This document shows, piece by piece, positions 5,447 to 51,596 of a stretch of 64,000 nt of DNA. The notes under the pieces were generated by a model. It searched no databases, was not told the origin of the DNA, and saw only the letters and a list, made by a program, of their open reading frames with translations. The first letter of the stretch is position 1. Every line of letters starts with the position of its first letter. Source of the stretch: Paenirhizobium naphthalenivorans (GTDB lineage Bacteria > Pseudomonadota > Alphaproteobacteria > Rhizobiales > Rhizobiaceae); NCBI RefSeq assembly GCF_007992095.1, contig NZ_BJZP01000012.1, positions 62,001 to 126,000 on the forward strand. The letters are read 5' to 3'. Made by a program: the position numbers and the translations under genes.

Positions 5447-5464
5447 TCTGGAGAGGAACTGGAC

Positions 5465-6244
5465 ATGGTTGAACTCGCTCTTCCCAAAAACTCGCAGATC
5501 AGCGAAGGCAAGGTCTGGCCTAAGCCGGCCGGTGCCACGAACGTACGGGAATACCGAATCTATCGCTGGAACCCTGACGACGGCCAAAACCCGCGCATCG
5601 ATACCTATTATATCGACATCGATGACTGCGGCCCGATGGTTCTTGATGGTCTTCTGTACATCAAGAACAACATCGATCCGACGCTGACGCTACGCCGCTC
5701 ATGCCGCGAAGGCATTTGCGGTTCCTGCGCGATGAACATCGACGGCACCAATACGCTCGCCTGCACCAAGGGCATGGACGAGATTGGCGGCACGGTGAAG
5801 GTCTACCCGTTGCCGCATATGCCGGTGGTAAAGGATCTGGTGCCGGATCTAACCAATTTCTACGCCCAGCACCGCTCGATCGAGCCATGGCTGAAGACGG
5901 TTTCGCCGCCGCCGGCCAAGGAGTGGAAGCAGAGCCATGAGGATCGCCTGAAGCTCGACGGTCTGTACGAGTGCATCCTTTGCGCCTGCTGCTCGACCTC
6001 CTGTCCGAGCTACTGGTGGAACGGCGATCGTTATCTTGGTCCAGCCGTTCTGCTACAGGCCTATCGCTGGCTGATCGACAGCCGCGACGAGGCGACCGGC
6101 GAACGTCTTGATAACCTGGAAGACCCCTTCCGGCTCTATCGCTGCCACACGATCATGAACTGTACGCAGACCTGCCCGAAGGGTCTGAACCCGGCCAAGG
6201 CAATCGCCGAGATCAAGAAGATGATGGTCGAGCGCCGCGTCTGA
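5465..6244 (+). CDS. sdhB: Succinate dehydrogenase iron-sulfur subunit
   Basis: Electron-transfer subunit of complex II, 259 residues. The plant-type 2Fe-2S cluster is bound by [16 protein letters not shown] and LAC near residues 78-100; the 4Fe-4S and 3Fe-4S clusters by [23 protein letters not shown] and CTQTCPKGL near residues 165-235. It passes electrons from FAD in SdhA to quinone at SdhCD. ATG at 5465 is preceded by GGAGAGGAA. Last gene of the sdh operon; 192 bp separate it from the next gene, and a weak GC-rich hairpin near 6300-6335 might act as terminator. Confidence 0.98.
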
Positions 6245-6436
6245 TCGGCGTAAAGAACGGTATGCGGGTTGCATTCCAGCGGTTGTGACCCATGTAATTG
6301 CGGACCGGCGAGGATCTCCTTTGGAGGTTCCGCCGTTTCGTATATTGGCCAGTCTCTTGATTCGAGCATGCGTTTTGCGATAATTCCGCCTTGTTTCGGG
6401 ACGACAACCGGCCTTACGCGGTCAACCGGGAGTGTG

Positions 6437-34496: not shown

Positions 34497-35498
<1,002 letters not shown>

Positions 35499-36039: not shown

Positions 36040-36163
36040 ACTCGGGGCTAGGGCTTTGGGGGCTTCGTTCTTGCCCGGTGACCGGGTTGACTTGCTGTCT
36101 CAATGACGCCGCCCGTTTGCGCTTCCAGCGTGGTCCGCCTAGTCTTGACGGCGAGGAGTGATC

Positions 36164-37060
36164 ATGATCGACAAGCTTGAATTCTTCATCGCGCTCGCGC
36201 GTGCTCAGCATTTTGGTCGCGCGGCGCAAGAATGCGGCATAACTCAGCCAACACTGTCGGCGGCGATCCGGCAATTGGAGGATCAGCTGGGCGTCATGCT
36301 CGTGCAGCGCGGTTCTCGCTACCAGGGTCTCACCCCGGAGGGGCAGCGGGTACTCGAATGGGCACGCCGTATCGTCGGTGACGCGCGCACCATGCGGGAA
36401 GAGATGCGGGCCGCCCGGCGGGGGCTTGCCGGTCATATCCGCATCGCCGTCATTCCGACGGCCCTGTCGATGGTGCCGCGTATCACCGGTCCCTTCCAAG
36501 AAAAGCACCCGGACGTTACCTTCTCTGTCAGCTCGCGTACGTCCTTGCAGGTGCTCAGCCTGCTGGAAAATCTCGAGATCGATGCGGGGATCACCTATCT
36601 CGACAATGAGCCGCTTGGCCGCGTGACCTCGGTGCCGCTCTACGCTGAGCGCTATCACCTCATCACGGCGGCAGGCACGCCACTCAGTGATCGCGATCTT
36701 GTGTCGTGGCGTGAAGTGGCTGATCTTCGGCTTTGTCTATTGACTGCAGATATGCAAAACCGGCGGATCATCAACCACCATCTCACGGAAGCTGGTGTCG
36801 TCGCCAAGCCCACGCTCGAATCCAATTCGATGATTGTGCTGTTTTCCCATATTCGTACGGGCCGCTGGGCGTCGATTATGCCGCGCAACATCGCGGAATC
36901 CTTCGGTTTTTCCGAGGAGATTCGGATGATCCCAATCGTTGAGCCGGAGGCCGAGCACTCGGTTGGCCTCGTGGCGCAATATCGCGAACCCTTTACCCCT
37001 CTGGTCTCCGCTCTCCTGCATGAGGCACGCCGCTTGTCCGATCTTCAGGTATTTCAATAG
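36164..37060 (+). CDS. LysR-family regulator, probable regulator of the fds operon
   Basis: LysR-type regulator, 298 residues. N-terminal HTH (FIALARAQHFGRAAQECGITQPTLSAAIRQLEDQLGVMLVQRG), linker helix, then the periplasmic-binding-like effector domain from about residue 90 (GHIRIAVIPTALSMVPRI). ATG at 36164 has GAGGAG 5 nt upstream; a GTG at 36158 would place the start inside that site. It lies directly upstream of fdsG in the same direction, as FdsR does in several formate-using bacteria, which suggests it controls fds with formate or a related effector; this is inference from position. Confidence 0.85.
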   Translation: MIDKLEFFIALARAQHFGRAAQECGITQPTLSAAIRQLEDQLGVMLVQRGSRYQGLTPEGQRVLEWARRIVGDARTMREEMRAARRGLAGHIRIAVIPTALSMVPRITGPFQEKHPDVTFSVSSRTSLQVLSLLENLEIDAGITYLDNEPLGRVTSVPLYAERYHLITAAGTPLSDRDLVSWREVADLRLCLLTADMQNRRIINHHLTEAGVVAKPTLESNSMIVLFSHIRTGRWASIMPRNIAESFGFSEEIRMIPIVEPEAEHSVGLVAQYREPFTPLVSALLHEARRLSDLQVFQ

Positions 37061-37117
37061 GTTTTCTCTATCGTTGCATGGGACTGCTTTATTGACCTTG
37101 GCTGGTATCAGTGTGCA

Positions 37118-37136
37118 CTTTGACAACAAGTCAGAG
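37118..37136. promoter_or_regulatory. Candidate operator upstream of fdsG
   Basis: Imperfect 19-bp palindrome CTTTGAC-N5-GTCAGAG (6 of 7 positions paired) about 115 bp upstream of the fdsG start. It has the T-N11-A-like symmetric form used by LysR regulators. The left arm also contains TTGACA, a -35-like hexamer, but no good -10 follows at 17 bp. The 190-bp gap 37061-37250 also contains nested inverted repeats further down. Confidence 0.35.
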
Positions 37137-37145
37137 GGTTCGACG

Positions 37146-37202
37146 GGAAAGCGGACTTCGTCGGCGCGTTAACACTGCAAACCGACTGGGCGTTCGCTTT
37201 CC
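37146..37202 (+). repeat. Nested inverted repeat in the fds leader
   Basis: Outer arms GGAAAGCG (37146-37153) and CGCTTTCC (37195-37202) are perfect 8-bp complements; inside them GTCGG (37160-37164) pairs with CCGAC (37182-37186). Together they could fold as one long stem-loop ending 48 bp before fdsG. I recognise no known riboswitch core. Confidence 0.35.
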
Positions 37203-37250
37203 ACGTGTCGACCGTCTTGGCGCATTCGTGTCGGTTTGGGAGGGCTGATC

Positions 37251-37730
37251 ATGGATATTCGATCGTCTGCGGATGATTTTGTTTCTCGTACACAGGCCAT
37301 CGTCGCCGAGTTGAAAGCGCTCGAGGGGCCCTTGCTACCGATCCTGCATGCGGTGCAGGAGAGTTTCGGCTATGTGCCGGATGAGGTGAAGCCGGTCCTT
37401 GCTGAGGCGCTCAACCTGTCGCGGGCCGAAGTACACGGCGTGGTTAGCTTTTATCATGATTTCCGCACCCACCCCTCGGGTCGTCATGTTCTGAAGCTCT
37501 GTCGTGCCGAGGCCTGCCAGTCACGCGGCGGCGAGGCTCTGGCTGATCGGGTGCGTGAATTGCTCGGCGTTGATTTTCACCAGACCACACAGGACGGGGC
37601 GGTGACGCTGGAGCCCGTCTATTGCCTCGGGCTGTGTGCCTGTGCCCCTGCCGCCATGCTGGATGACGAGCTGCATGGCCGGATCGATGCAGACGCGCTC
37701 GAGGGTCTTATCGCGGAGGCACGTCTATGA
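37251..37730 (+). CDS. fdsG: NAD-dependent formate dehydrogenase gamma subunit
   Basis: Thioredoxin-like 2Fe-2S subunit (NuoE-like), 159 residues, of the soluble molybdenum formate dehydrogenase. Cluster ligands are in CRAEACQS (first pair) and VYCLGLCACAP (second pair). The N-terminal helical part contains LPILHAVQESFGYVPDEV, typical of NuoE. ATG at 37251 is preferred to GTG 37236 because GGGAGGG lies upstream of both but the family begins at MDIRSSADDF. Its stop overlaps the fdsB start (ATGA), so the subunits are translated in a coupled way. Confidence 0.95.
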   Translation: MDIRSSADDFVSRTQAIVAELKALEGPLLPILHAVQESFGYVPDEVKPVLAEALNLSRAEVHGVVSFYHDFRTHPSGRHVLKLCRAEACQSRGGEALADRVRELLGVDFHQTTQDGAVTLEPVYCLGLCACAPAAMLDDELHGRIDADALEGLIAEARL

Positions 37731-39283
37731 GCCGGACTGTCTTCATTCCCAGCGACGCCGCCGCTCTTGCTGTCGGCGCCGACAAGGTCGCCGCTGCGAT
37801 CGAACAAGAGGCCACCCTGCGCGGCATCGAGCTTGCTATCGTCCGCAATGGCTCCCGCGGGCTCCTTTGGCTCGAGCCGCTGGTGGAAGTTCGCACCGGA
37901 CGTGGCCGCATAGCCTATGGGCCAGTGTCCGTCGCCGATGTCCCTAGCCTGTTCGAGGCGGATTTTCTGGCTGGCGGGGAGCATCCGCTCTGTCATGGTC
38001 TGACCAAGGAAATTCCCTATCTTGCCCGGCAGACGCGGCTCACCTTCTCCCGTTGCGGTGTCACTGATCCGTTGTCGCTTGCCAACTATCGCCACTACGA
38101 GGGACTGAAGGGGCTCGACAAGGCGCTGGCCATGGGGTGCTCGGAAATCGTTAAGACGGTGACCGATAGTGGACTGCGGGGGCGCGGCGGCGCCGGCTTC
38201 CCGACCGGCGTCAAATGGAAGACCGTTGCCGATGCCCCCGGTGATCAGAAATACATCGTTTGTAATGCCGACGAGGGCGACAGTGGCACCTTCTCCGACC
38301 GGATGATCATGGAGGGTGATCCCTTCGTGTTGATCGAAGGCATGGTCATCGCCGGTATCGCGACTGGTGCCAGCAAGGGCTATGTCTACACCCGCTCCGA
38401 ATATCCGCATGCCATCAAGACCATGCGCGCCGCGATTGAAATTGCCCGAGGCGCCGGCATTCTCGGTCCGTCTGTCATGGGCTCGGCGCACGCCTTCGAC
38501 ATCGAAGTGCGTATGGGCGCCGGTGCCTATGTCTGCGGTGAGGAGACCTCGCTGCTCAATTCGCTTGAAGGCAAGCGCGGCATCGTGCGAGCCAAGCCGC
38601 CGCTTCCGGCGCTGCAGGGGCTGTTCGGCCGGCCGACCGTGGTCAACAACGTGATCTCGCTCGCCTCCGTGCCGGTCATTCTCGACCGCGGGGCCGCCTT
38701 CTATCGCGACTATGGCGTGGGTCGCTCGCACGGTACGATCCCGATCCAGCTTGCCGGCAATATCAAGCATGGTGGACTCTATGAAACGGCCTTTGGCCTG
38801 ACGCTCGGCGAGATCATCTACGACATCGGTGGTGGCACGGCGAGCGGCCGACCGGTCAAGGCCGTGCAGGTCGGCGGTCCGCTCGGGGCCTATTTCCCGC
38901 CGAGCCTGTTCGACACGGTCTTCGACTATGAGGCCTTCGCTGCCAGGGATGGTCTGATCGGCCATGCTGGCATCGTCGTCTTCGATGACACTGCAGACAT
39001 GCTGAAGCAAGCACGCTTCGCCATGGAATTCTGCGCGATTGAAAGTTGCGGCAAGTGCACCCCCTGTCGGATCGGCTCGACGCGGGGCGTCGAGACGGTC
39101 GACCGAATTGCCCGGGGCATAGAGCCGGAGAAGAACAGGGCGTTGCTCTCTGACCTCTGCAACACGATGAAGTTCGGCTCGCTCTGTGCACTCGGTGGCT
39201 TCACCCCCTATCCAGTCATGAGCGCGCTCCATCATTTTCCGGAGGATTTCGCGCCCACCCCCCTCGTTGAAGCGGCGGAGTAA
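37727..39283 (+). CDS. fdsB: NAD-dependent formate dehydrogenase beta subunit
   Basis: NuoF-like subunit that passes electrons from the clusters to FMN and NAD+, 518 residues. N-terminal thioredoxin-like domain (about residues 1-90), then the FMN/NADH domain with GLRGRGGAGFPTGVKWKTV and the ADEGDSGTFSDR segment, and the 4Fe-4S site in SCGKCTPCRIGSTRG with the fourth Cys in GSLCALGG. Complete; fdsA follows after 5 bp. Confidence 0.96.
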   Translation: MSRTVFIPSDAAALAVGADKVAAAIEQEATLRGIELAIVRNGSRGLLWLEPLVEVRTGRGRIAYGPVSVADVPSLFEADFLAGGEHPLCHGLTKEIPYLARQTRLTFSRCGVTDPLSLANYRHYEGLKGLDKALAMGCSEIVKTVTDSGLRGRGGAGFPTGVKWKTVADAPGDQKYIVCNADEGDSGTFSDRMIMEGDPFVLIEGMVIAGIATGASKGYVYTRSEYPHAIKTMRAAIEIARGAGILGPSVMGSAHAFDIEVRMGAGAYVCGEETSLLNSLEGKRGIVRAKPPLPALQGLFGRPTVVNNVISLASVPVILDRGAAFYRDYGVGRSHGTIPIQLAGNIKHGGLYETAFGLTLGEIIYDIGGGTASGRPVKAVQVGGPLGAYFPPSLFDTVFDYEAFAARDGLIGHAGIVVFDDTADMLKQARFAMEFCAIESCGKCTPCRIGSTRGVETVDRIARGIEPEKNRALLSDLCNTMKFGSLCALGGFTPYPVMSALHHFPEDFAPTPLVEAAE

Positions 39284-39288
39284 AGAAC

Positions 39289-42168
39289 ATGCCCCTCGTT
39301 CATGAAATCGACTATGGCACCCCGGCCTCCAAATCGACCGAGACCGTGACACTGACCATCGACGGTCTCCAGGTCACGGTGCCTGCCGGCACGTCCGTTA
39401 TGCGTGCCTCGATGGAAGCCGGCATCCAGGTGCCGAAGCTCTGCGCCACTGACATGGTGGATGCCTTCGGCTCCTGCCGGCTCTGTCTCGTCGAGGTCGA
39501 GGGCCGCAATGGCACGCCGGCTTCCTGCACCACGCCATGCGCGCCGGGCATGGTGGTTCACACCCAGACAGAGCGGCTGAAGCAGATCCGCAAGGGGGTG
39601 ATGGAGCTCTATATCTCCGACCATCCGCTTGACTGTCTGACCTGCGCGGCCAATGGCGACTGCGAATTGCAAGACATGGCCGGCGCGGTCGGCCTGCGCG
39701 ACGTGCGCTATGGCTATGAGGGCGACAATCACGTCAAGACTCGCAACAACGGCGACATCAACGCCAAATGGATGCCGAAGGACGAATCGAACCCCTACTT
39801 CACTTATGATCCGTCGAAATGCATCGTCTGCTCGCGCTGCGTGCGGGCCTGTGAGGAAGTGCAGGGCACGTTCGCGCTGACCATCGAGGGCCGTGGTTTC
39901 GACAGCCGGGTTTCGCCCGGCGCGCATGAACATTTCCTCGAGTCGGAGTGCGTCTCTTGCGGCGCCTGTGTTCAAGCCTGTCCGACGGCGACGCTCACCG
40001 AAAAATCGGTCATCGCCATCGGCCAGCCCGAGCATTCGGCCGTCACCACCTGCGCTTATTGCGGCGTGGGCTGCTCGTTCAAGGCGGAGATGCGCGGCGA
40101 GGAACTGGTGCGCATGGTGCCCTACAAGGATGGCAAGGCCAATCGCGGTCATTCCTGTGTCAAGGGTCGTTTCGCTTACGGCTATGCCACCCACAAGGAC
40201 CGCATCCTCAATCCGATGATGCGCGAGAAGATCACCGATCCGTGGCGCGAAGTGACTTGGGAAGAGGCTCTTGCCCATGTTTCCTCCGAGTTCCGCCGGC
40301 TGCAGTATCAGTATGGCAAGGATTCGATCGGCGGCATCACCTCCTCGCGCTGCACCAACGAGGAGACTTTCCTCGTCCAGAAGCTGATCCGCGCCGGTTT
40401 CGGCAATAACAATGTCGATACCTGCGCCCGCGTCTGCCATTCGCCGACCGGCTATGGTCTCGGCCAGGCCTTCGGCACCTCGGCTGGCACGCAGGACTTC
40501 GATTCGGTCGAACATTCCGACGTGATTATGGTGATCGGCGCCAACCCGTCAGCGGCGCACCCGGTCTTTGCCTCGCGCATGAAGAAGCGCATCCGCCAAG
40601 GCGCCAAGCTGATCGTGCTCGACCCGCGAGAAACCGAGACCGTCAACTCGGTCCACGCAAGGGCAGACTACCACTTGCCACTCAAGCCCGGCACTAATGT
40701 CGCGGTCATCACTGCTCTTGCCCACGTTATTGTTACGGAAGGCCTGTTCGACGAAGCCTTCATTCGCGAGCGTTGCGACTGGTCGGAATTCGAGGATTGG
40801 GCCGCCTTTGTCGCCGAGCCGCAGCATTCGCCGGAAGAGACCGAAAAGTTCACTGGCGTTGCGGCCGATCTCGTGCGCGGCGCAGCCCGGCTTTACGCCC
40901 GGGGCGGCAATGGCGCGATTTACTACGGTCTCGGCGTGACCGAGCACAGCCAGGGGTCGACGACTGTCATGGCGATCGCCAACCTTGCCATGGCGACCGG
41001 CAATATCGGCCGTCCGGGCGTCGGCGTGAATCCGCTACGCGGCCAGAACAATGTGCAGGGCTCGTGCGACATGGGCTCCTTCCCGCATGAACTGCCGGGC
41101 TATCGCCACGTTTCCGACGACGCGACGCGCGATACGTTCGAGAAGCTCTGGGGCGTCAAGCTCGACAACGAGCCGGGCCTGCGTATCCCCAACATGCTCG
41201 ATGCTGCCGTCGATGGTTCGTTCAAGGGCATCTATATCCAGGGCGAGGACATCCTCCAGTCCGACCCCGACACCAAGCATGTCTCAGCCGGCCTCGCCGC
41301 GATGGAATGCGTCGTGGTCCATGACCTCTTCCTCAATGAGACGGCCAACTATGCCCACGTCTTCCTGCCGGGTTCGACCTTCCTGGAGAAAGATGGCACG
41401 TTCACCAATGCCGAGCGCCGTATCAACCGGGTGCGCAAGGTTATGAGCCCGAAGAACGGCCTGGCCGACTGGGAGGTCACGCAGAAGCTCGCCCAGGCCA
41501 TGGGGCTGCCATGGAACTACAGCCATCCGTCCGAAATCATGGACGAGATTGCCGCCACGACGCCGAGCTTCGCCAGCGTGTCCTATGAACTTCTGGAAAA
41601 AATGGGCTCGGTTCAGTGGCCCTGCAACGAGAAGTTCCCCGAGGGATCGCCGATCATGCATGTCGGTGGTTTCGTACGTGGCAAGGGCAAGTTCATCCGC
41701 ACCGAATATGTGGCGACCGACGAACGCACTGGTCCGCGTTTCCCGTTGCTCTTAACCACCGGTCGCATTCTGTCGCAGTATAACGTCGGTGCTCAGACAC
41801 GCCGTACCGAGAATATCGCCTGGCATGCGGAAGATCGCCTCGAGATCCATCCGCATGACGCCGAACAGCGTGGCATCAAGGACGGCGATTGGGTGCGTCT
41901 CGCCAGCCGGGCGGGAGAGACGACGCTGCGGGCGTTCATCACCGAGCGCGTTTCGCCGGGCGTCGTTTACACGACCTTTCACCATCCCGAGACTCAGGCC
42001 AATGTCATCACCACGGACTTTTCCGACTGGGCGACCAACTGCCCGGAATACAAGGTGACCGCCGTGCAGGTCGCACCGTCGAATGGTCCGTCCGAATGGC
42101 AGCAGGACTATGAGGATCTGTCGCGCCAGTCACGGCGCATTGCTGGGAAGCTGGAGGCTGCGGAGTAG
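39289..42168 (+). CDS. fdsA: NAD-dependent formate dehydrogenase alpha (catalytic) subunit
   Basis: Bis-MGD molybdenum subunit that oxidises formate to CO2, 959 residues. N-terminal 2Fe-2S domain (FGSCRLCLVEV, CTTPC), a His/Cys 4Fe-4S site (HPLDCLTCAANGDC), two ferredoxin-type 4Fe-4S sites (CIVCSRCVRAC, CVSCGACVQACP), then the molybdopterin part with its own 4Fe-4S motif CAYCGVGC (residues 255-262). The catalytic pair is Cys383-His384 in CARVCHSP, so it is a Cys rather than a Sec enzyme. Cytosolic; no twin-arginine signal. The family name FdsA is supported by the fdsGBA gene order. Confidence 0.96.
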   Translation: MPLVHEIDYGTPASKSTETVTLTIDGLQVTVPAGTSVMRASMEAGIQVPKLCATDMVDAFGSCRLCLVEVEGRNGTPASCTTPCAPGMVVHTQTERLKQIRKGVMELYISDHPLDCLTCAANGDCELQDMAGAVGLRDVRYGYEGDNHVKTRNNGDINAKWMPKDESNPYFTYDPSKCIVCSRCVRACEEVQGTFALTIEGRGFDSRVSPGAHEHFLESECVSCGACVQACPTATLTEKSVIAIGQPEHSAVTTCAYCGVGCSFKAEMRGEELVRMVPYKDGKANRGHSCVKGRFAYGYATHKDRILNPMMREKITDPWREVTWEEALAHVSSEFRRLQYQYGKDSIGGITSSRCTNEETFLVQKLIRAGFGNNNVDTCARVCHSPTGYGLGQAFGTSAGTQDFDSVEHSDVIMVIGANPSAAHPVFASRMKKRIRQGAKLIVLDPRETETVNSVHARADYHLPLKPGTNVAVITALAHVIVTEGLFDEAFIRERCDWSEFEDWAAFVAEPQHSPEETEKFTGVAADLVRGAARLYARGGNGAIYYGLGVTEHSQGSTTVMAIANLAMATGNIGRPGVGVNPLRGQNNVQGSCDMGSFPHELPGYRHVSDDATRDTFEKLWGVKLDNEPGLRIPNMLDAAVDGSFKGIYIQGEDILQSDPDTKHVSAGLAAMECVVVHDLFLNETANYAHVFLPGSTFLEKDGTFTNAERRINRVRKVMSPKNGLADWEVTQKLAQAMGLPWNYSHPSEIMDEIAATTPSFASVSYELLEKMGSVQWPCNEKFPEGSPIMHVGGFVRGKGKFIRTEYVATDERTGPRFPLLLTTGRILSQYNVGAQTRRTENIAWHAEDRLEIHPHDAEQRGIKDGDWVRLASRAGETTLRAFITERVSPGVVYTTFHHPETQANVITTDFSDWATNCPEYKVTAVQVAPSNGPSEWQQDYEDLSRQSRRIAGKLEAAE

Positions 42169-42203
42169 GCAATGGCAAAACATGCCCTTCAGCCGCCTGC
42201 TAT

Positions 42204-42233
42204 CGCCTTTCCTCCGCTTGAGGGGGAAAGGCG
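42204..42233. repeat. Stable intergenic hairpin between fdsA and fdhD
   Basis: Arms CGCCTTTCCTCC and GGGGGAAAGGCG pair over 12 bp with one G-U, loop GCTTGA. No T tract. It lies in the 131-bp gap inside the fds operon. It looks like an intergenic palindromic repeat or an mRNA-processing/stability element rather than a terminator. Confidence 0.55.
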
Positions 42234-42299
42234 GCAAGCTGATTTGCCTTGGTCCCCTCTGCCGGTACGCGACGGGTGGTTTGGGTCGAAGGACAGGGC

Positions 42300-43127
42300 A
42301 TGATGACCAGAAAGACCTCCACCCGCATTCGTGAAGTGCAATTCCGCAACGGCGTCCTGGCCGAGGGCAGCCGGATTGTTCCGGAAGAAGTGCCGATCGC
42401 CTTTTCCTATGGCGGCACGACGCATGCGGTGATGATGGCGACACCGGCCGATCTGGAGGATTTTGCCCTCGGCTTCTCGCTTTCCGAGGGCATTATCTCC
42501 GCAGCGGCGGATATTGTCTCGGTCGAGATGATGGAGGCGGGTGATGGCATTGACCTGCAGATTGTGCTGGCCGACGGCACGGCAGAGGCCTTGACGGCAC
42601 GTCGCCGGCACATGGCCGGCCCGGTTGGCTGTGGCCTGTGTGGTATTGAGTCGATTGAGCAGGCGACACGCAGTGTAGCGCCCGTGGACGCCGGCGATTT
42701 CTCGCTGACGCCGGCGCAGATCGCCGAGGCGGTGTGGTTGCTCGGAGACGGACAGAGCCTCAATCGTGAAACCCGTGCCGTGCATGGCGCGGGCTTCTTC
42801 ATTCCCGGGCAGGGACTGGTTTGTCTGCGCGAGGACGTGGGCCGTCACAATGCGCTCGACAAACTTGCCGGCGCCGTGATGCGCTCCGGCCTGGCTGGCG
42901 GCCACGGCGCCGTCGTCGTGACCAGCCGTTTGTCGGTTGAAATGGTGCAAAAGACGGCGGCGCTGCGAAGTGCTGTGCTGATCGCCGTATCGGCACCCAC
43001 CGCACTTGCGGTGCGCACGGCGGAAGCCGCGGGCATCACCCTCGTTGGCATCGCCCGGGGCGACGAATTCGAGATTTTTACCAGACCAGAACGTACCATT
43101 GCCGGAGTGACCGCCCATGTCGCATGA
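42300..43127 (+). CDS. fdhD: Formate dehydrogenase accessory sulfurtransferase FdhD (FdsC)
   Basis: Transfers sulfur from a cysteine desulfurase to the molybdenum cofactor, a step essential for formate dehydrogenase activity; 275 residues. The sulfur-carrying cysteines are Cys111 and Cys114 in GPVGCGLCGIES. Other family segments are LEDFALGFSLSEGII and LCLREDVGRHNALDKLAG. Two adjacent ATGs (42300, 42303) are candidate starts; the longer frame from 42249 lacks similarity. Corresponds to fdsC of the fdsGBACD operon. It overlaps fdsD by 11 bp. Confidence 0.94.
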   Translation: MMTRKTSTRIREVQFRNGVLAEGSRIVPEEVPIAFSYGGTTHAVMMATPADLEDFALGFSLSEGIISAAADIVSVEMMEAGDGIDLQIVLADGTAEALTARRRHMAGPVGCGLCGIESIEQATRSVAPVDAGDFSLTPAQIAEAVWLLGDGQSLNRETRAVHGAGFFIPGQGLVCLREDVGRHNALDKLAGAVMRSGLAGGHGAVVVTSRLSVEMVQKTAALRSAVLIAVSAPTALAVRTAEAAGITLVGIARGDEFEIFTRPERTIAGVTAHVA

Positions 43128-43347
43128 CACCACTGAAAGGCTCGTCCGCATGGCGAACCAGATCGCCACCTTCTTCCTGTCGCAGCCCGAATCGGGGCGC
43201 ATCGAGGGCGTTGCGAACCATATCAACAAGTTCTGGGAGCCGCGCATGCGGCGGGAGCTGTTCGAGCATATCGACAAGGGGGGAGAAGGACTCATGCCAA
43301 TGGTGATCGAGGCCTCCAGGACGATCAAGCGCCCGATCGCCGCCTAG
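43117..43347 (+). CDS. fdsD: NAD-dependent formate dehydrogenase delta subunit
   Basis: A 76-residue FdsD. The diagnostic segments RLVRMANQIATFFLSQPESGRIEGVANHINKFWEPRMRREL and the C-terminal EASRTIKR are present. In Cupriavidus and Rhodobacter it is a small subunit/assembly factor of the complex. It starts inside fdhD (43117 versus stop at 43127). Last gene of the fds operon; the response regulator gene follows after 87 bp without an evident terminator, so read-through is possible. Confidence 0.94.
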   Translation: MSHDTTERLVRMANQIATFFLSQPESGRIEGVANHINKFWEPRMRRELFEHIDKGGEGLMPMVIEASRTIKRPIAA

Positions 43348-43434: not shown

Positions 43435-44826
43435 GTGAGGGCGGACACGGCACGCAAAGTCCAGGCGAGCGAACGGGACCCGGAATTCGGCCCCTGGTTG
43501 GCGCAGGCCACCATTCTCGTCGTCGATGACGAACCGGGCATGCGCAATTTTCTCGTGCGCACGCTAGCCCCCCGTTGCAAGGCGATTGAGGAAGCCGCTG
43601 ATGCCGAGGAGGCATCCCGCAAGCTTGACCAGCACCATTTCGACGTCGTCATTCTTGATAATATCATGCCGGGCAAGAACGGCGTTGACTGGCTGATCGA
43701 ACAGAGGGCGATCGGTTTCTTTGCCGATGTCATCCTGATGACGGCCTATGCGGATCTCGAAACGGCGATCCGGGCCTTGCGCGCCGGTGCCGTCGATTTC
43801 GTCCTCAAACCCTTCCGTTCCAACCAGATCCTCAATGCGGTCGCGCGCTGTCTCGACCGCATCCGCCTACAGCGCGAGAACTTCGTCTTGCGCTATGAAT
43901 TGAGAGCGACCGCTGACCACATCCTGCTGCGCGACAAGCTGATCGGTGGGTCCGCCGCAATCCAGCAGGTGCGTGAGACGCTTGCCCGCGTGGCGCCCCT
44001 GCCAACGACCGTGTTGCTCACCGGTGAGTCCGGTACGGGCAAAGAGGTGGCTGCCCGTTCGCTGCACGCCCTTTCCGACCGGGCAGCCAAGCCCTTCGTT
44101 CCGGTCAACTGCGCCGCCATCCCGCCGGATGTGATCGAGTCCGAACTGTTCGGCCATGTGCGCGGTGCCTTTACCGGGGCGGAATCGGGGCGCGAGGGTC
44201 TTTTCCTCCATGCTCAGGGCGGCACGCTTTTCCTCGACGAGATCGGAGAAATGCCGCTGGCCACCCAGAGCAAGCTGCTCCGCGTGATCGAGGACCGGCG
44301 CGTGCGCCCGGTCGGAGCGGAGCGGGAAGTACCGATCGACCTGCGCTTTGTTTTCGCCACCAATGCCAACCTCGAGAAGCTGGTGCAGGAGGGTGGGTTC
44401 CGCCCGGATCTCTATTACCGCATCAACGTTATGCAGCTGAAGCTGCCGCCGCTGCGCGACCGGGGCGATGACGTGCTCGAGCTTGCAAGCCTATTCATGC
44501 ACAAGCTGTCGCAGCAGCTCGGCATGCCGATGGTGCCGATCGATAAGGCGGCAAAAGCGGTGCTCTCCGCTTACGCATGGCCGGGCAACGTGCGCGAACT
44601 CCGCAATCTGATCGAACGCTCACTTATCCTCGGTGGCTTCCCAGAGGATTTCCGCGGCTGGCGGGGAGGCTCCGTGAGCCTCCCGTCGGGGACCCTTGAG
44701 GAGGTCGAACGGCGCCATATCCTCGCTGTGCTGGAAGAGACCGGTGGGGATCGCGACGAGGCTGCGCGACGGCTCGGTATCTCGCGCAAGACTATCGACC
44801 GCAAGTTCGTGTTCTGGAATGCCTGA
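43435..44826 (+). CDS. Sigma-54-dependent response regulator (NtrC family)
   Basis: A 463-residue activator: receiver domain (residues 26-140, phospho-acceptor Asp75 in VVILDNIMPG), AAA+ domain with Walker A GESGTGKE, the sigma-54 contact loop GAFTGAESG and Walker B GGTLFLDEIGEM, and a C-terminal Fis-type HTH (DEAARRLGISRKTIDRKF). Start is GTG 43435. Its stop overlaps the kinase start by ATGCCTGA (8 bp), so both are made together. It almost surely binds the twin palindromes upstream of the transporter gene. Which acid it answers to is unknown. Confidence 0.93.
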   Translation: MRADTARKVQASERDPEFGPWLAQATILVVDDEPGMRNFLVRTLAPRCKAIEEAADAEEASRKLDQHHFDVVILDNIMPGKNGVDWLIEQRAIGFFADVILMTAYADLETAIRALRAGAVDFVLKPFRSNQILNAVARCLDRIRLQRENFVLRYELRATADHILLRDKLIGGSAAIQQVRETLARVAPLPTTVLLTGESGTGKEVAARSLHALSDRAAKPFVPVNCAAIPPDVIESELFGHVRGAFTGAESGREGLFLHAQGGTLFLDEIGEMPLATQSKLLRVIEDRRVRPVGAEREVPIDLRFVFATNANLEKLVQEGGFRPDLYYRINVMQLKLPPLRDRGDDVLELASLFMHKLSQQLGMPMVPIDKAAKAVLSAYAWPGNVRELRNLIERSLILGGFPEDFRGWRGGSVSLPSGTLEEVERRHILAVLEETGGDRDEAARRLGISRKTIDRKFVFWNA

Positions 44827-46840
44827 AGCCGCTCCGCGAGATATCAGCATTCGCCGCGGCAGATCGATCCGCTATCGGCTCCTGGCCATAGCTCTCCTGC
44901 CGACACTGGTCATCCTGCCGCTTCTGCTGGTTGCGACCATGGCTCGCTGGGAGGCGAAGTTCGATGCTTTGCTGACCTCGAAGGTCAATGCGGACCTCAC
45001 CATCGCGCACCAATATCTGGCTCGGATCCTTGAGAACACCGGCGAGCATCTCGCCGCACTGACTGGCTCCGTCGCCTTTCGCGACGCGGCGGATCAGGGC
45101 GGTGGAGCTGGGCTTTCGGCCTATTTAGAAGAAAACCGGATGCGCCTTGGCCTCGACTTTCTCTTCTTGGTGAACCAAACCGGCATGTCGATCGGGCCCG
45201 CCGGCTTCCCGGGCCAGAGCGCGGTGCGGACGGATTGGCCGGTTCTCAGGTCGGCCTTTGCGGGCGAGCCGAAAACGGCAATAGACATCTTCTCCCGGCG
45301 GGAGCTGGAGGCGATCTCGCCGGCGCTTGCCGCGCGCGCCCAGCTGGAACTCGTGCCGACACCAAACGCGGTTCCGACTGATCGGGCGAGCGAAACTCGC
45401 GGCATGGTCGTGCATTCGGCTAGCCCCGTCGCTTTGCCGGACGGACCAGCCGTGCTCGTCGGCGGTATCCTGCTCAACCAGAATCTCGTTTTCATCGACA
45501 CGATCAATGATCTCGTCTATCGCGCGGCGAGCTTGCCGGAGGGGAGTCAAGGGACGGCGACGCTTTTCCTCGACGACGTGCGAATCAGCACCAATGTCCG
45601 GCTGTTCGAGGACAAGCGGGCGCTTGGCACCCGCGTTTCGGCGGCTGTCCGCCAAGCGGTGCTGGACGAGGGACGGGTCTGGCTCGACAGCGCCTTCGTC
45701 GTCAGCGACTGGTATGTTTCGGCCTACGAGCCGATCAGCGACAGTTTTGGCAAGCGCGTCGGCATGCTCTATGTCGGTTTCCTCGAGGCGCCGTTCGCCC
45801 GCGCCAAGACCGAGACCATCATCGGTATTGCCGTCGCATTCCTTCTGGTCACTGCTGCCAGCGTGCCGATCTTCCTTCGCTGGGCGCGGGCGATCTTCAA
45901 ACCGTTGGAGCGGATGACCGGCACCATTGCCCGGGTCGAGGAGGGCGATCTGGGCGCGCGATCCGGCCTTATCGATGCCAGCGATGAGATCGGCCGGGTG
46001 GCTGCTCATCTCGACAGCCTTTTGGATCAGTTGCAGCAGCGTGAACGGGAACTCCGGACGTGGAACGACGAGCTCAACGATCGTGTCGCCGAGCGTACGC
46101 GTGAACTCGAACTGGCGAACCGGCAGCTGGAGGCGACGACCAAGCAACTCATCATGTCGGAGAAGCTCGCGGCGCTCGGTGAGATTACGGCTGGCGTCGC
46201 CCATGAGATCAACAATCCGATTGCCGTCATGCAGGGTAATCTCGATGTGGTGCGCAGCGTGCTTGGGGACAGGGCGGAGGGTTTGGCGACGGAACTCCGG
46301 CTGATCGACGAGCAAATCCACCGGGTCAACCAGATCGTCACCAAGCTGCTGCAATTCGCCAAACCGGAGGAATATGCCGGTTATGTCGAGCGTCATAGCC
46401 CGGCTGCTGTGATTTCGGATTGTCTTCCGCTCGTCCAACATCTGCTCGGCAAAGCCGCCATCAAGGTCGAGCGGGACGATCAGGCGACGCGGCATGTTCT
46501 GATGAATCACACGGAGTTGCAGCAAGTCCTGATCAACCTGATCGTCAACGCCATCCACGCCATGCCGGACGGAGGCCGTCTGCGCCTCGCCAGCCGCGAC
46601 GAGGAGCGCGATGGTCATGACGGCATCTGCATTGACGTGACGGATACCGGCGTCGGCATGACGCCGCAGGTGCTTTCGCGGATCTTCGATCCGTTTTTTA
46701 CCACCAAGCGTCGGCAAGGTACGGGCCTTGGCCTATCGATTAGCCAGACCTTGGTCTCCCGCCAAGGCGGCGCGCTGACCGTGGAGAGCGAACCAGGCAG
46801 GGGGACGACCTTCTCGATCTGGCTTCCAGAGGCTGACTAA
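44819..46840 (+). CDS. Sensor histidine kinase with periplasmic Cache-type domain
   Basis: A 673-residue membrane kinase. TM1 about residues 21-41, a periplasmic sensor of nearly 300 residues (45-335) resembling a single-Cache domain, TM2 about 340-360, HAMP (FKPLERMTGTIARVEEGDLGARSG), a coiled coil (QQRERELRTWNDELNDRVAERTRELELANRQLE), the HisKA site GVAHEINNP with phospho-His462, and the ATPase domain with DTGVGMT and GTGLGLSIS. Architecture resembles DctB-type sensors of organic acids. It overlaps the response-regulator gene. The ligand is not known; neighbouring genes point to formate, oxalate, pyruvate or lactate. Confidence 0.92.
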   Translation: MPEAAPRDISIRRGRSIRYRLLAIALLPTLVILPLLLVATMARWEAKFDALLTSKVNADLTIAHQYLARILENTGEHLAALTGSVAFRDAADQGGGAGLSAYLEENRMRLGLDFLFLVNQTGMSIGPAGFPGQSAVRTDWPVLRSAFAGEPKTAIDIFSRRELEAISPALAARAQLELVPTPNAVPTDRASETRGMVVHSASPVALPDGPAVLVGGILLNQNLVFIDTINDLVYRAASLPEGSQGTATLFLDDVRISTNVRLFEDKRALGTRVSAAVRQAVLDEGRVWLDSAFVVSDWYVSAYEPISDSFGKRVGMLYVGFLEAPFARAKTETIIGIAVAFLLVTAASVPIFLRWARAIFKPLERMTGTIARVEEGDLGARSGLIDASDEIGRVAAHLDSLLDQLQQRERELRTWNDELNDRVAERTRELELANRQLEATTKQLIMSEKLAALGEITAGVAHEINNPIAVMQGNLDVVRSVLGDRAEGLATELRLIDEQIHRVNQIVTKLLQFAKPEEYAGYVERHSPAAVISDCLPLVQHLLGKAAIKVERDDQATRHVLMNHTELQQVLINLIVNAIHAMPDGGRLRLASRDEERDGHDGICIDVTDTGVGMTPQVLSRIFDPFFTTKRRQGTGLGLSISQTLVSRQGGALTVESEPGRGTTFSIWLPEAD

Positions 46841-46852
46841 TCTGGGGTTCTT

Positions 46853-46887
46853 GGACATTTTGTCCGTTTTTATCGGACATTTTGTCC
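46853..46887 (+). promoter_or_regulatory. Twin upstream activator sites for the response regulator
   Basis: Two identical 13-bp palindromes GGACATTTTGTCC at 46853-46865 and 46875-46887. Centres are 22 bp apart, two helical turns, so dimers bound to them would face the same side. They lie 54 bp and 76 bp upstream of the -24 element. This is the layout of NtrC-family enhancers. A near match to the IHF consensus (one mismatch; TAACTTATTGAAA at 46910-46922) lies between them and the promoter. Confidence 0.85.
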
Positions 46888-46940
46888 GTTCAGGCACTCC
46901 TGCTCCAGCTAACTTATTGAAAATTGGCAGATTCGGTATT

Positions 46941-46954
46941 GGCACGGCGGTTGC
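46941..46954 (+). promoter_or_regulatory. Sigma-54 (-24/-12) promoter of the transporter gene
   Basis: TTGGCACGGCGGTTGCT contains the invariant GG (46941-46942) and GC (46953-46954) with exactly 10 bp between them, matching the TGGCAC-N5-TTGC consensus fully. It lies about 205 bp upstream of the transporter start, leaving a leader of roughly 190 nt in which I recognise no gene; an open frame from 46851 crosses the promoter and is not coding. Confidence 0.9.
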
Positions 46955-47160
46955 TTCGAGATCGCTGTTCCCGGCGGAGTGTTTCTTGGAGAAGATATGC
47001 GGACGGGAGCGGGGGAGGAAGCCGCAACGCTTGGCTTCTTATTTGGACCGGTCCTGCGGTACGCCTTGTTGGAGGAACAAAACAAGGTGGGAGAATCCGT
47101 GGACGGCCGGATCAGGGAAAGATCCATCGGTGATATCCGATGAGAGGGAGGATTTCGACT

Positions 47161-48816
47161 ATGTCTGCTACGACCGAGACAGCGACGGGCGGTTACGGAG
47201 GCGGTGGCCTTCTCGACCGCGAACGCATTATTGCCAAACCTGGTTTCAATCGTTGGTTGGTGCCGCCGGCGGCGCTGGCCATCCATCTTTGCATCGGCAT
47301 GGCTTATGGCTTTTCCGTCTTCTGGCTGCCACTTACCAAGTCGCTTGGTATTGGCCAGTCCATCGCCTGCCCGGACCTCACTCTCATATCCGCCCTGTTC
47401 ACGACCAGCTGCGACTGGCGCGTCAGCGATCTCGGCTGGATCTATACTTTGTTCTTCGTCCTTCTCGGGTCCTCGGCGGCCATCTGGGGCGGCTGGCTTG
47501 AGCGTGTCGGGCCGCGCCGCGCCGGCTTCGTTTCGGCTTGCTGCTGGTGCGGCGGTATTTTGATCGCTGCGCTTGGCGTCATAACCCATCAGCTGTGGTT
47601 GATGTGGCTCGGCGCGGGCGTGATCGGCGGCATCGGGCTCGGCCTCGGCTATATCTCGCCGGTTTCGACGCTGATCAAATGGTTCCCCGACCGGCGCGGC
47701 ATGGCGACTGGCATGGCCATCATGGGCTTCGGCGGTGGTGCTATGATCGGTGCGCCGCTTGCCAATATGCTGATGAACACTTTCAAGAGCGACACTTCAG
47801 TCGGCGTCTGGCAGACTTTTGTCGTCATGGCGTGCGTCTATTTTGTCTTCATGGTGGGCGGCGCCTTTGGTTATCGTATTCCGCCGGCCGGCTGGCGTCC
47901 CGAAGGCTGGGTGCCGAAGGTCACCGGCAATGCGATGATCACCCATGGCCACGTCCACCTGAACAAGGCGCACAAGACGCCGCAGTTCTGGCTTATCTGG
48001 GCGGTTCTCACCTTGAACGTTTCGGCCGGTATCGGCGTGATCGGCATGGCTTCGCCTATGCTGCAGGAGATCTTCGCCGGTTCGCTGATCGGCCTTCCTG
48101 AGCTGAAGTTCTCCGATCTGAGCAAGGAACAACTGACGGCCATCGCCGCGATCGCCGCCGGGTTTACCGGCCTTCTGTCGCTCTTCAACATCGGCGGGCG
48201 ATTCTTCTGGGCCTCGCTTTCCGACAAGATCGGCCGCAAGAATACCTACTACGTCTTCTTCCTGCTCGGCATCGTGCTCTATGCTTCGGCCCCGTGGGCT
48301 GCCGGCATTGGTAGCAAGGTGTTTTTCGTCGCGGCCTTCTGCATCATCCTGTCGATGTATGGCGGCGGTTTTGCCACCATTCCGGCCTATCTTGCCGACA
48401 TTTTCGGGACCCAGTTCGTCGGCGCCATTCATGGGCGGTTGCTGACCGCCTGGGCAACCGCAGGCATCATCGGTCCTGTGGTGGTCAACTATATTCGCGA
48501 GGCGCAGATCGCGGCGGGTATTCCGCGTGCTCAGGTTTACGACTTCACGATGTACATTCTGGCCGGCATGCTGGCGCTCGGTCTCGTTGCCAACTTCCTG
48601 GTCAGGCCGCTGTCCGACAAGTGGTTCATGTCCGACGAGGAAGTGGCAGCGTTGCAGGCCAAGAGCCAAGCGGCGGCGGCTGGTCCGACCGGATCCTTCG
48701 GCATCGGCAAGGGTGGGTTCGATGGCAAGGCGGCGATCGCTTGGGCCGTCGTCGGCATCCCGATCCTCTGGGGGGTCTGGATCACGCTGCAAAAGACCTT
48801 TGTGCTCTTCGCTTGA
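47161..48816 (+). CDS. Oxalate/formate antiporter family MFS transporter
   Basis: A 551-residue major-facilitator protein of the OFA family with about 12 helices. The start RWLVPPAALAIHLCIGMAYGFSVFWLP is the OFA signature; GLGYISPVSTLIKWFPDRRGMATGMAIMGFGGGA covers helices 4-5; NIGGRFFWASLSDKIGRK is the conserved loop in the second half. There are extra loops (about residues 55-80 and 215-260) and a C-terminal tail with a further helix. ATG 47161 is chosen for GGAGG 9 nt upstream, over ATG 47140. Family members move oxalate, formate or pyruvate. Its sigma-54 promoter and closeness to fds suggest uptake or exchange of such an acid. Confidence 0.88.
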   Translation: MSATTETATGGYGGGGLLDRERIIAKPGFNRWLVPPAALAIHLCIGMAYGFSVFWLPLTKSLGIGQSIACPDLTLISALFTTSCDWRVSDLGWIYTLFFVLLGSSAAIWGGWLERVGPRRAGFVSACCWCGGILIAALGVITHQLWLMWLGAGVIGGIGLGLGYISPVSTLIKWFPDRRGMATGMAIMGFGGGAMIGAPLANMLMNTFKSDTSVGVWQTFVVMACVYFVFMVGGAFGYRIPPAGWRPEGWVPKVTGNAMITHGHVHLNKAHKTPQFWLIWAVLTLNVSAGIGVIGMASPMLQEIFAGSLIGLPELKFSDLSKEQLTAIAAIAAGFTGLLSLFNIGGRFFWASLSDKIGRKNTYYVFFLLGIVLYASAPWAAGIGSKVFFVAAFCIILSMYGGGFATIPAYLADIFGTQFVGAIHGRLLTAWATAGIIGPVVVNYIREAQIAAGIPRAQVYDFTMYILAGMLALGLVANFLVRPLSDKWFMSDEEVAALQAKSQAAAAGPTGSFGIGKGGFDGKAAIAWAVVGIPILWGVWITLQKTFVLFA

Positions 48817-49096: not shown

Positions 49097-49576
49097 TCAG
49101 GCGGCCATCTCTTCAAGATCGCTGCCCTTGAACATCTTGGCGAGGTTCAGGAAGCAGATCATGCCATGCTCGTTGGCGATGATGCCTTCGGAGAAGGATT
49201 TGTCGAAGGAGGCGGATATCTCCGGTACCGGCTGAACCTGGCTCGACGGGATGGTTAGAATATCCGAAACGCGGTCGACCAGCATGCCGATGACCATGTT
49301 GTGAACCTCTGCAACCACGATAGCCGAACGCTCGTTGGCAACCGTGCTCTTCATCCCGAGCTTGTAGGCAAGATCGATAATCGGGATCACCGAGCCGCGC
49401 AGGTTCATCACGCCGATAACGTCTGCGGGGGCATGCGGGATGGGAGTCGACGGTGCCCAGCCGCGGATTTCGCGGATGGTCGTGGTCTTGACGCAGAACT
49501 CCTGGTCATGCAGCCGGAAGGCGATGATTTCGAGGGTTTCGCCGTTGAAGCTTGTCGAGTTGATCGCAGTCGCCAT
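49097..49576 (-). CDS. cheW: Chemotaxis coupling protein CheW
   Basis: CheW links chemoreceptors to the kinase CheA; 159 residues from ATG 49576. Family segments are IIAFRLHDQEFCVKTTTIREIRGW, HAPADVIGVMNLRGSVIPIIDLAYKLG and VIGMLVDRVSDIL. The start overlaps the chemoreceptor stop (TAATG), so it is translationally coupled to it. An additional in-frame TTG 15 bp upstream is unlikely. A receptor-specific copy; the main che cluster is not in the window. Confidence 0.93.
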   Translation of the reverse strand: MATAINSTSFNGETLEIIAFRLHDQEFCVKTTTIREIRGWAPSTPIPHAPADVIGVMNLRGSVIPIIDLAYKLGMKSTVANERSAIVVAEVHNMVIGMLVDRVSDILTIPSSQVQPVPEISASFDKSFSEGIIANEHGMICFLNLAKMFKGSDLEEMAA

Positions 49577-51360
49577 TAGAATTCTTCCCAACTTTCCTGT
49601 GCCTGGGCGGTTGCAGCGCCGCCGGTTGCGGCGCGAGCGACCTTAGCCATGAGTTTGCGTGCCGGGGATGCGACAGGTCTGGCATCAGGACGCGCTACGG
49701 ACACTGTAGTCGAAGAGTGTTGCCCAAATCTAAACTGCGACAGCAGATTGCGAAGGGTTTCGGATTCCCTGGCGAGGCTGTGGCTGGCCGCTGTCGTTTC
49801 CTCAACCATGGCCGCATTCTGCTGTGTATTCTGGTCCATGGCGTTGACCGCCTTGTTGATCTCCTGAAGTCCGGTTGCCTGTTCGCGAGAGGCTTCGACG
49901 ATGGCGATGACGTTCTGGTTGATGTCTTGCACCTCGGTGACGATCTGCGTGAGCGCCTTGCCAGTTTCTCCAACGAGCGAGACACCGTTGCGCACCTGTT
50001 CGCTGGAGGTGGTGATGAGTGCCTTGATTTCCTTGGCGGCATTGGCCGAGCGCTGGGCCAGTTCGCGCACCTCCTGGGCGACGACCGCAAAACCCTTGCC
50101 GGCATCTCCGGCGCGCGCCGCTTCGACACCGGCGTTCAGCGCCAGCAGATTGGTCTGGAAGGCGATGTCATCGATTACACCGATGATGTTGGAGATTTCG
50201 CGGGACGAGGATTCGATCCGACTCATAGCGTTGATCGCGCTTTTCACCACTTCTCCGGACTTTTCGGCACCTGATTTGGTCCGGGCCACGAGCGAACCGG
50301 CTTCCTCCGCTCGCTTGGAACTGTCGCTGACCGTCTGGGTGACTTGCTCGAGTGCTGCTGCTGTTTCCTCCACGGCGGCGGCCTGCTGTTCGGTACGCTT
50401 GGCCAGATCGTCGGAGGCCGACTGGATTTCTTTGGAGCCAGCGGCAATCGCATTGGTATTCTCGCCGACCGTGCGCATGGCAGCCTGCAGCTTGTCGAGT
50501 GAGTTGTTGAAGTCCAGCCGCAGTCGGTCGAGACTTGGAATCAGTGGTTGAACGATCCGGGTGGTCAGATCGCCCTCGGCGAGGGCGGTGAGGCCTGCGG
50601 CCACATCGTCAACCGAGCGAACCCGGTCGGTGATGTCGGTGGCGAACTTGACCACCTTGAAAACCTTGCCGTTCATGTCGAAGATCGGATTGTAGGAGGC
50701 CTGGATCCAGACGACCTTGCCGCCCTTGCCTAAGCGCTTGAACTCTTCGGCGACGAATTCTCCACCGGCCAGCTTTTGCCAGAAGCGCTGGTAGTCCGGG
50801 CTCTGGGTGTAAGAAGGTTCACACAACATTGCATGATGTTTGCCCTGGATTTCTCCAAGACTGTAACCGAGCGTGTTGAGAAAGTTATCGTTGGCCGTCA
50901 GAATATCACCCGTCGGTGTGAATTCGATGAGTGCCTGCGCCCTGGATACTGCGGCGAGCTTGCCGGCGTCTTCGGCGGCCTTCATCTTGGCGGCGGTGAT
51001 ATCGGTTGCGAATTTCACGACCTTGTAGGGCTTGCCGCCGCTGAACACCGGATTATAGGAGGCCTGAATCCAGATGTCCTGCCCCGTTTTGGAGATCCGC
51101 TTGTATTCGCGCGCGTCGAAACGGCCGGACGAAAGTGCGGCCCAGAAATCCGTGTAGTCTTGTGTCGCGGTGTAAGCCGGGTCGCAGAACATTCGATGAT
51201 GCTTGCCTTTGATCTCCGACAACTCGTAGCCGAGCGCCCGACAGAAATTCTCGTTGGCGGTGATGATATTGCCGCCGAGATCGAATTCGATGATTGCCTG
51301 GGACTTGCTCATGGCAGCCAGAATCGCTTTGGCGTCCGCTCCGAACATATTGATAGCCAC
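49576..51360 (-). CDS. Cytosolic methyl-accepting chemotaxis protein with two PAS domains
   Basis: A soluble chemoreceptor, 594 residues from GTG 51360 (GGGGAGAGACA upstream); a longer frame to 51468 lacks a ribosome site. Two PAS domains at about residues 10-120 and 135-245, each with a similar core (IIEFDLGGNIITANENF and LIEFTPTGDILTANDNF; HHRMFCDPAY and HHAMLCEPSY), a HAMP-like stretch, and the signalling domain with IDDIAFQTNLLALNAGVEAARAG. No transmembrane helix. The C terminus ends SWEEF, a CheR/CheB-binding pentapeptide. PAS domains may bind heme or flavin and sense oxygen or redox state. Coupled to cheW. Confidence 0.92.
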   Translation of the reverse strand: MAINMFGADAKAILAAMSKSQAIIEFDLGGNIITANENFCRALGYELSEIKGKHHRMFCDPAYTATQDYTDFWAALSSGRFDAREYKRISKTGQDIWIQASYNPVFSGGKPYKVVKFATDITAAKMKAAEDAGKLAAVSRAQALIEFTPTGDILTANDNFLNTLGYSLGEIQGKHHAMLCEPSYTQSPDYQRFWQKLAGGEFVAEEFKRLGKGGKVVWIQASYNPIFDMNGKVFKVVKFATDITDRVRSVDDVAAGLTALAEGDLTTRIVQPLIPSLDRLRLDFNNSLDKLQAAMRTVGENTNAIAAGSKEIQSASDDLAKRTEQQAAAVEETAAALEQVTQTVSDSSKRAEEAGSLVARTKSGAEKSGEVVKSAINAMSRIESSSREISNIIGVIDDIAFQTNLLALNAGVEAARAGDAGKGFAVVAQEVRELAQRSANAAKEIKALITTSSEQVRNGVSLVGETGKALTQIVTEVQDINQNVIAIVEASREQATGLQEINKAVNAMDQNTQQNAAMVEETTAASHSLARESETLRNLLSQFRFGQHSSTTVSVARPDARPVASPARKLMAKVARAATGGAATAQAQESWEEF

Positions 51361-51596
51361 TGTCTCTCCCCTCGCTATTTGACATGAGAGTGTGTGGTTG
51401 AGCCTCCACCTCATGCGTTGAATTCTGAGCCCATTCTTGAGCAATGCCGGTATGGAGCCGAGGAACATGCAAATACTGCCCCCCCTTATAAATAGGGGTC
51501 ATCAGTTAACGTCTTGTAAATAAATCTTGCTTCGATACGAAATCACGTCCCCTGAGAATTGCTCAGGGGACGTGTTGATCGTCCATAATGTTCATG
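51361..51596 (-). promoter_or_regulatory. Upstream region of the PAS chemoreceptor with a 13-bp perfect palindrome
   Basis: The 435-bp gap between arginase and the chemoreceptor (51361-51795) has no convincing gene. At 51544-51574 lies a perfect 13-bp inverted repeat (CACGTCCCCTGAG and CTCAGGGGACGTG, five-base loop) with no T tract on either strand, about 185 bp upstream of the chemoreceptor start. A second weak repeat, GAATCATG ... CATGATTC, is at 51630-51652. A structured RNA or operator is possible. Confidence 0.4.

Follow-up and report, generated by a model that had tools for sequence, protein, structure and literature searches.

Two identical 13-bp palindromes upstream of an OFA-family transporter gene probably form an enhancer for the adjacent NtrC-type response regulator, which, once phosphorylated by the neighbouring sensor kinase, would activate the transporter gene; the cargo is likely formate or another small monocarboxylate. 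We put the probability of this reading at about 0.83. The elements, their order and their distances recur in many genomes, and the palindrome pair occurs together with the kinase gene. The system is a conventional NtrC-type sigma-54 transporter switch, and the mechanism that the original prediction had read from the bare sequence is very likely correct.

In the sequence of events that we envisage, the Cache domain would sense a small acid and the kinase would phosphorylate the regulator, dimers of which would bind the two palindromes side by side. IHF would bend the spacer between enhancer and promoter, the AAA+ domain of the regulator would open the sigma-54 polymerase complex, and the transporter would be produced when its substrate is about.

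Table 1. Positions of the features discussed, in window coordinates unless a locus is named
Feature	Position	Strand	Remarks
Palindrome 1, GGACATTTTGTCC	46853-46865	+	arms GGACA/TGTCC; predicted regulator site; conserved in relatives
Palindrome 2, identical GGACATTTTGTCC	46875-46887	+	22 bp centre to centre from palindrome 1; -24 GG 60 bp further on
TAACTTATTGA, predicted IHF-like site (YAAN4TTGR)	46910-46920	+	between enhancer and promoter
Sigma-54 -24/-12 element, TGGCACGGCGGTTGC	46940-46954	+	sequence match
NtrC-type response regulator	43435-44826	+	receiver, sigma-54 activation domain with GAFTGA, Fis-type HTH (Pfam)
Sensor histidine kinase	44819-46840	+	single Cache domain 3, HAMP, HisKA, HATPase_c (Pfam); start inferred; listed ORF from 44696
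OFA-family MFS transporter, predicted target	47161-48816	+	start inferred; listed ORF from 47140
Chemotaxis receptor	49576-51468	-	adjoins the transporter gene
Formate dehydrogenase cluster including small ORF	36158-43347	+	upstream of regulator gene, same strand
LysR-type regulator (formate dehydrogenase cluster)	36158-37060	+	
Formate dehydrogenase gamma	37236-37730	+	
Formate dehydrogenase beta-like	37727-39283	+	
Formate dehydrogenase alpha	39289-42168	+	
FdhD-like gene	42249-43127	+	
Small ORF, 76 aa	43117-43347	+	no NCBIfam match
NAD L-lactate dehydrogenase	34506-35498		model score over cut-off; 11.6 kb upstream
Side-branch sets of pair and sigma-54 box	L268, 12195-12298; L259, 14560-14800 and 7780-8010 (minus strand); L270; L292; L293		

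Palindromes and promoter in the window and the genome

Searching the window (the whole 64-kb stretch of DNA analysed) for GGACATTTTGTCC without mismatch returned exactly two sites, starting at 46853 and 46875, in exact agreement with the twin palindromes originally described. A zero-mismatch search for TGGCACNNNNNTTGC on both strands gave one site (46940-46954), and the full-consensus -24/-12 element with GG-N10-GC spacing that had been claimed is thus the sole perfect match in the window. It follows the TGGCAC-N5-TTGC consensus, and the genome encodes RpoN (two matches over the cut-off, C2:221344-222846 and C6:61625-62869). Only the perfect site is informative, because -24/-12 sites with up to two mismatches were no commoner than chance (73 seen, 68.6 expected). 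Both palindromes and the promoter sit between the kinase stop (46840) and the transporter gene, and the gene and domain calls bear out the position given in the prediction, after an activator/kinase pair and before an OFA-family transporter. The transcript would be expected to start near 46966.

For the transporter, ATG 47161 is the more likely start than 47140, since the listed homologues are mostly 549-554 aa long and GGAGGA lies just upstream. For the kinase, ATG 44819 is more likely than TTG 44696, as the annotated kinase of Rhizobium sp. SL42 likewise overlaps its regulator by 8 bases. A riboswitch in the 5' leader was considered and rejected: Rfam at the gathering threshold gave no match, and the fold was no better than those of shuffles (z = -0.82).

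In the whole assembly (4.95 Mb) the strict palindrome pair (spacer 4-24) occurred once. The palindrome had been offered as a possible key to a whole regulon, a hope that these searches did not bear out in this genome. Allowing up to three mismatches in a pair with a 9-bp spacer added one further place (C6:181854, 2 mismatches), and five lone GGACANNNTGTCC sites lie elsewhere in the genome. Perfect -24/-12 matches, searched as TGGCACNNNNNTTGCW, numbered 9 in the assembly (reversed-pattern control, 3); three of the nine lie on C6 between 82.7 and 90.6 kb. A site at C16:4873 (1 mismatch) was not assigned to the system; it comes after a perfect -24/-12 box, next to a regulator of 40% identity. This regulator paralogue (C16, about 4900-6330; L006) is followed by the box in a similar layout with another target.

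Single GGACANNNTGTCC sites with up to one mismatch are common in the genome (169 per strand, reversed control 120), as would be the case if the palindromes and the promoter match were chance or a neutral repeat. We give this explanation next to no credence, as the reversed-pattern pair controls were zero in the family, order and class scans, the pair is conserved in several families, and letter shuffles of 52 gap sequences yielded a pair with up to two mismatches in 0 of 2600 cases. A sigma-54 score of at least 10/11 arose in 1 of 1040 such shuffles; neither the shuffle counts nor the locus counts are significance values, the loci being related.

Occurrence of the palindrome pair across genomes

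A search for the kinase matched 41 of 297 Rhizobiaceae genomes (E up to 1e-100, at most three candidates scored per genome). One of these (G074) was dropped because a contig end cuts its kinase, leaving 40 readable loci, the counts over which are not independent because the loci are related. With a limit of two mismatches in 20 positions, the pair was present in 31 of the 40, our own locus included and G120 counted through its transporter on another contig. Six loci exceeded the limit with 3-5 mismatches (G061, G021, G244, G116, G013, G248), and three had no pair under six (G131, G180, G181), although a single site with at most one mismatch persists in G180 and G181.

The transporter was found in 69 of the 297 genomes, 28 of them shared with the kinase set and 41 without a kinase match. 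Upstream regions were examined in the 30 less divergent of these 41, three genomes of the same genus included. The original prediction had been staked on conservation of the palindromes before orthologous transporters, and on this point it came through well: against the 31 of 40 loci with the kinase, the pair was present in 0 of the 30 regions where the kinase was not found (fewest mismatches, 6), and the sigma-54 score there never exceeded 9/11. In the loci examined the pair thus tracks the kinase, and no other observation speaks as strongly for assigning the palindromes to this regulator. That the adjacent regulator controls the transporter through these sites, as had been proposed, is supported by this co-occurrence, and the sigma-54 element and its distance accompany the pair.

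A further scan disregarded gene positions and looked for strict pairs, two GGACANNNTGTCC sites separated by 4-24 bp. Within the Rhizobiaceae, 19 of 297 genomes matched (reversed control, 0), and 18 of the 19 pairs had a relative of this kinase on one side and an OFA gene on the other, the exception being L089 of G017. Across the order, 14 of 397 genomes matched, comprising our own and G054, already counted, and 12 others. Five of these 12, from another family, have the pair in the kinase-OFA gap (G330, G435, G462, G484, G542); G577 has it between regulator and OFA gene, G505 before the regulator gene and G381 before other genes near the system, and in the remaining four none of these genes lies in the 3-kb stretch around the pair. 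In the class (spacer 6-12), 5 of 367 genomes matched, three of them new, two of which, again of another family, have the pair in the kinase-OFA gap.

Several related loci depart from this arrangement. In L225 (Methylorubrum extorquens CM4 plasmid pCMU01) the genes run in the order OFA, regulator, kinase, and a single perfect palindrome (5576-5588) precedes the first of them. At L251, L253, L255, L256 and L260-L265 the gene after the same kinase encodes a different OFA transporter (about 38-52% identity); several of these loci show a spacing of 19-21 bp, a distance of 84-89 bp to the promoter, or degenerate sites. Relatives of the chemotaxis receptor (63-91% identity) were present in L009, L010, L252, L254 and L257 among 57 loci searched, with a partial match (53%) in L260.

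Geometry and the IHF-like element

In 28 of the 30 good family pairs the -24 GG lies 59-61 bp beyond the centre of the second palindrome; in the other two (G210, G146) the distance is 85-86 bp. Sigma-54 scores of 10-11 of 11 were found in 34 of 40 family loci and in 11 of 12 other loci. Spacing between the centres was compared in 40 good pairs (30 from the family and 10 from the 12 other loci) and was 22 bp in 24, 23 in 8 and 21 in 3, with rarer values of 20 (2 pairs), 19 (2) and 24 (1). The prediction had placed both palindromes on one helix face; this is roughly right, but it does not hold strictly, because the spacing varies from 19 to 24 bp between genomes.

Between the second palindrome and the promoter, 23 of 45 spacers (45 of the 52 gaps qualified for this count) contained YAA-N4-TTGR, compared to 1% of shuffles, and in all 23 the element started 30-32 bp before the GG. 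We take this element to resemble the IHF consensus. IHF is described as commonly binding between enhancer and sigma-54 promoter (PMC7962754), and we predict that it binds at 46910-46920 here.

We also considered that the palindromes might be bound by some other protein, whether a repressor or a second activator, with the adjacent regulator acting elsewhere. Binding by the regulator is a prediction, and in 6 of the 34 distinct genomes with a strict pair, the stretch examined shows the pair apart from these genes (L089, L162, L164, L166, L168, L284). Moreover, AGGACAAATTGTCCT, a 13-mer of the same type, is reported as the operator core and regulatory site of the unrelated M.SsoII (PMC3978073). 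Against these points, the presence of the pair follows the kinase and not the transporter, the distance to a sigma-54 promoter, which requires just such an activator, is nearly constant, and in G505 the pair also stands before the regulator gene itself. We therefore consider control by another protein very improbable and retain the adjacent regulator as the factor that would bind the pair. The M.SsoII site shares the GGACA/TGTCC arms and the 3-bp centre, but it is a lone site, used by the DNA methyltransferase of a restriction-modification system, without a sigma-54 promoter (PMC3978073); we take the likeness to be a coincidence.

Relation of the regulator to known systems

The regulator has the domain composition of the NtrC family, its sigma-54 activation domain being of the AAA+ type. 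NtrC-type regulators use tandem upstream sites, and the regulators behind the AtoC, NtrC and ZraR models share with the present one the domain order, the sigma-54 activation and such sites. They differ in that our regulator matched no named NtrC subfamily, the best 25 of 112 NCBIfam equivalog models all scoring below cut-off (AtoC, 390.6 of 714). Among the alphaproteobacterial regulators compared (one row, G011, is truncated), the sequence of the last helix is RKT(I/V/L)DRK, except in G021, G244, G116 and G013, which have RKTIERK and the sites of which are degenerate. A tie between last helix and site sequence is only a lead, because these four regulators form one clade in the regulator tree. 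Among gammaproteobacterial relatives of the regulator (L016-L022, L055), there was no OFA relative above the score shown and no GGACANNNTGTCC except a lone site in L055.

One of the closest described parallels is MifS-MifR of Pseudomonas aeruginosa, a kinase and NtrC-type regulator that need RpoN, with PA5530 as the MFS carboxylate transporter gene (PMC4482717). Compared by description and not by sequence, the two systems share the kinase, the regulator and a -24/-12 element before the transporter gene; they differ in substrate, which for PA5530, a C5-dicarboxylate transporter, is alpha-ketoglutarate, and no such palindrome pair is named in the portion of PMC4482717 available. Our literature search, outside which most subscription papers fall, found no publication tying the operator to a two-component system, and a text search with four 13-mers returned only papers on the SsoII/Ecl18kI methyltransferases.

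Substrate of the transporter

By sequence, the transporter has an MFS fold and is of the OFA type. It scored below cut-off with TIGR00890 (158.5 of 374.85 bits) and with the OxlT-type model TIGR04259 (116.6 of 335 bits). Two solved structures matched, SfMCT (L-lactate), which was the better, and OxlT (oxalate:formate). R272 and K355 are functional charged residues of OxlT. In the alignment R272 is kept as R354, but K355 is replaced by W438, so that the pair of charges is incomplete; this replacement speaks for a monocarboxylate. Use of oxalate was rejected as an option: the oxalyl-CoA decarboxylase model matched 6 places in the genome, none with a score over cut-off.

We believe the substrate is likely formate or another small monocarboxylate, because the formate dehydrogenase cluster is adjacent and the OxlT lysine is lost. 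A relative of formate dehydrogenase alpha occurred within about 10 kb of the kinase in 9 of 40 family loci, our own included (upstream in 5, downstream in 4), and was not found within the span in the other 31. A divergent formate dehydrogenase alpha follows the transporter in all six Bradyrhizobium-like loci, and in Thalassospira (L011) the OFA gene is followed by a relative of formate dehydrogenase beta.

The same switch could carry L-lactate or pyruvate in place of formate. SfMCT was the best NCBIfam model (304 bits, cut-off 320) as well as the best structural match, and an NAD L-lactate dehydrogenase gene lies in the window; SfMCT shares the MFS fold by sequence, differing in that its model score falls just short and in that our transporter carries a C-terminal OXA-tail domain at 530-557 (27, above the cut-off of 24). 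However, that dehydrogenase was found in 0 of 57 related loci searched, most of them covering some 8 kb to either side. Relatives of formate dehydrogenase, by contrast, recur in two kinds and on different sides, and FdhD relatives are nearby in 13 of 40 family loci, our own included. Formate is our preferred substrate; lactate or pyruvate is a serious alternative whose chances fall somewhat short of even.

A side branch with chaperone genes

In some genomes the pair precedes genes other than transporters. Beyond the kinase gene of G106 come a pair with 2 mismatches, an IHF-like element, a sigma-54 box that scores 11/11 at a distance of 60 bp, and then clpB; a second set stands before dnaK (pair 1 mismatch, sigma-54 10/11, 61 bp). 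In G381 dnaK-dnaJ is preceded by a perfect pair and, 60 bp from it, an 11/11 box, and G505 has further sets near the system, one beside FdhD, with ClpB-like and FdhF-like frames, judged by eye, beside two. A pair lacking the sigma-54 box, perfect or near-perfect, stands before FdhF/YdeP-type genes in G381 and G106 (L268, 6347-6381; L259, 17917-17951). In a tree of 65 regulators, G106, G131, G381 and G505, from three families, formed one branch (support 100/98) inside the OFA-linked regulators; G131 has DyP peroxidase and encapsulin genes downstream, where there is a sigma-54 box but no palindrome pair.

A sigma-54 chaperone precedent in rhizobia is described for groESL3 of Bradyrhizobium (PMC4842269). 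The pair, the IHF-like spacer and the sigma-54 box may together be a portable operator cassette that belongs to a single alphaproteobacterial regulator family. It would serve mostly as a small-acid transporter switch and would have been recruited in this one branch for dnaK, clpB and formate-dehydrogenase-like genes, as a proteostasis response that sigma-54 mounts under formate or acid stress; we give this reading even odds. The dnaK and clpB sites would link the regulator family to chaperone control. For a sensor-regulator family in which no named member was found, the locus offers a concrete DNA site and a single-gene target, so that both the signal and the substrate of the transporter could be tested with one reporter.
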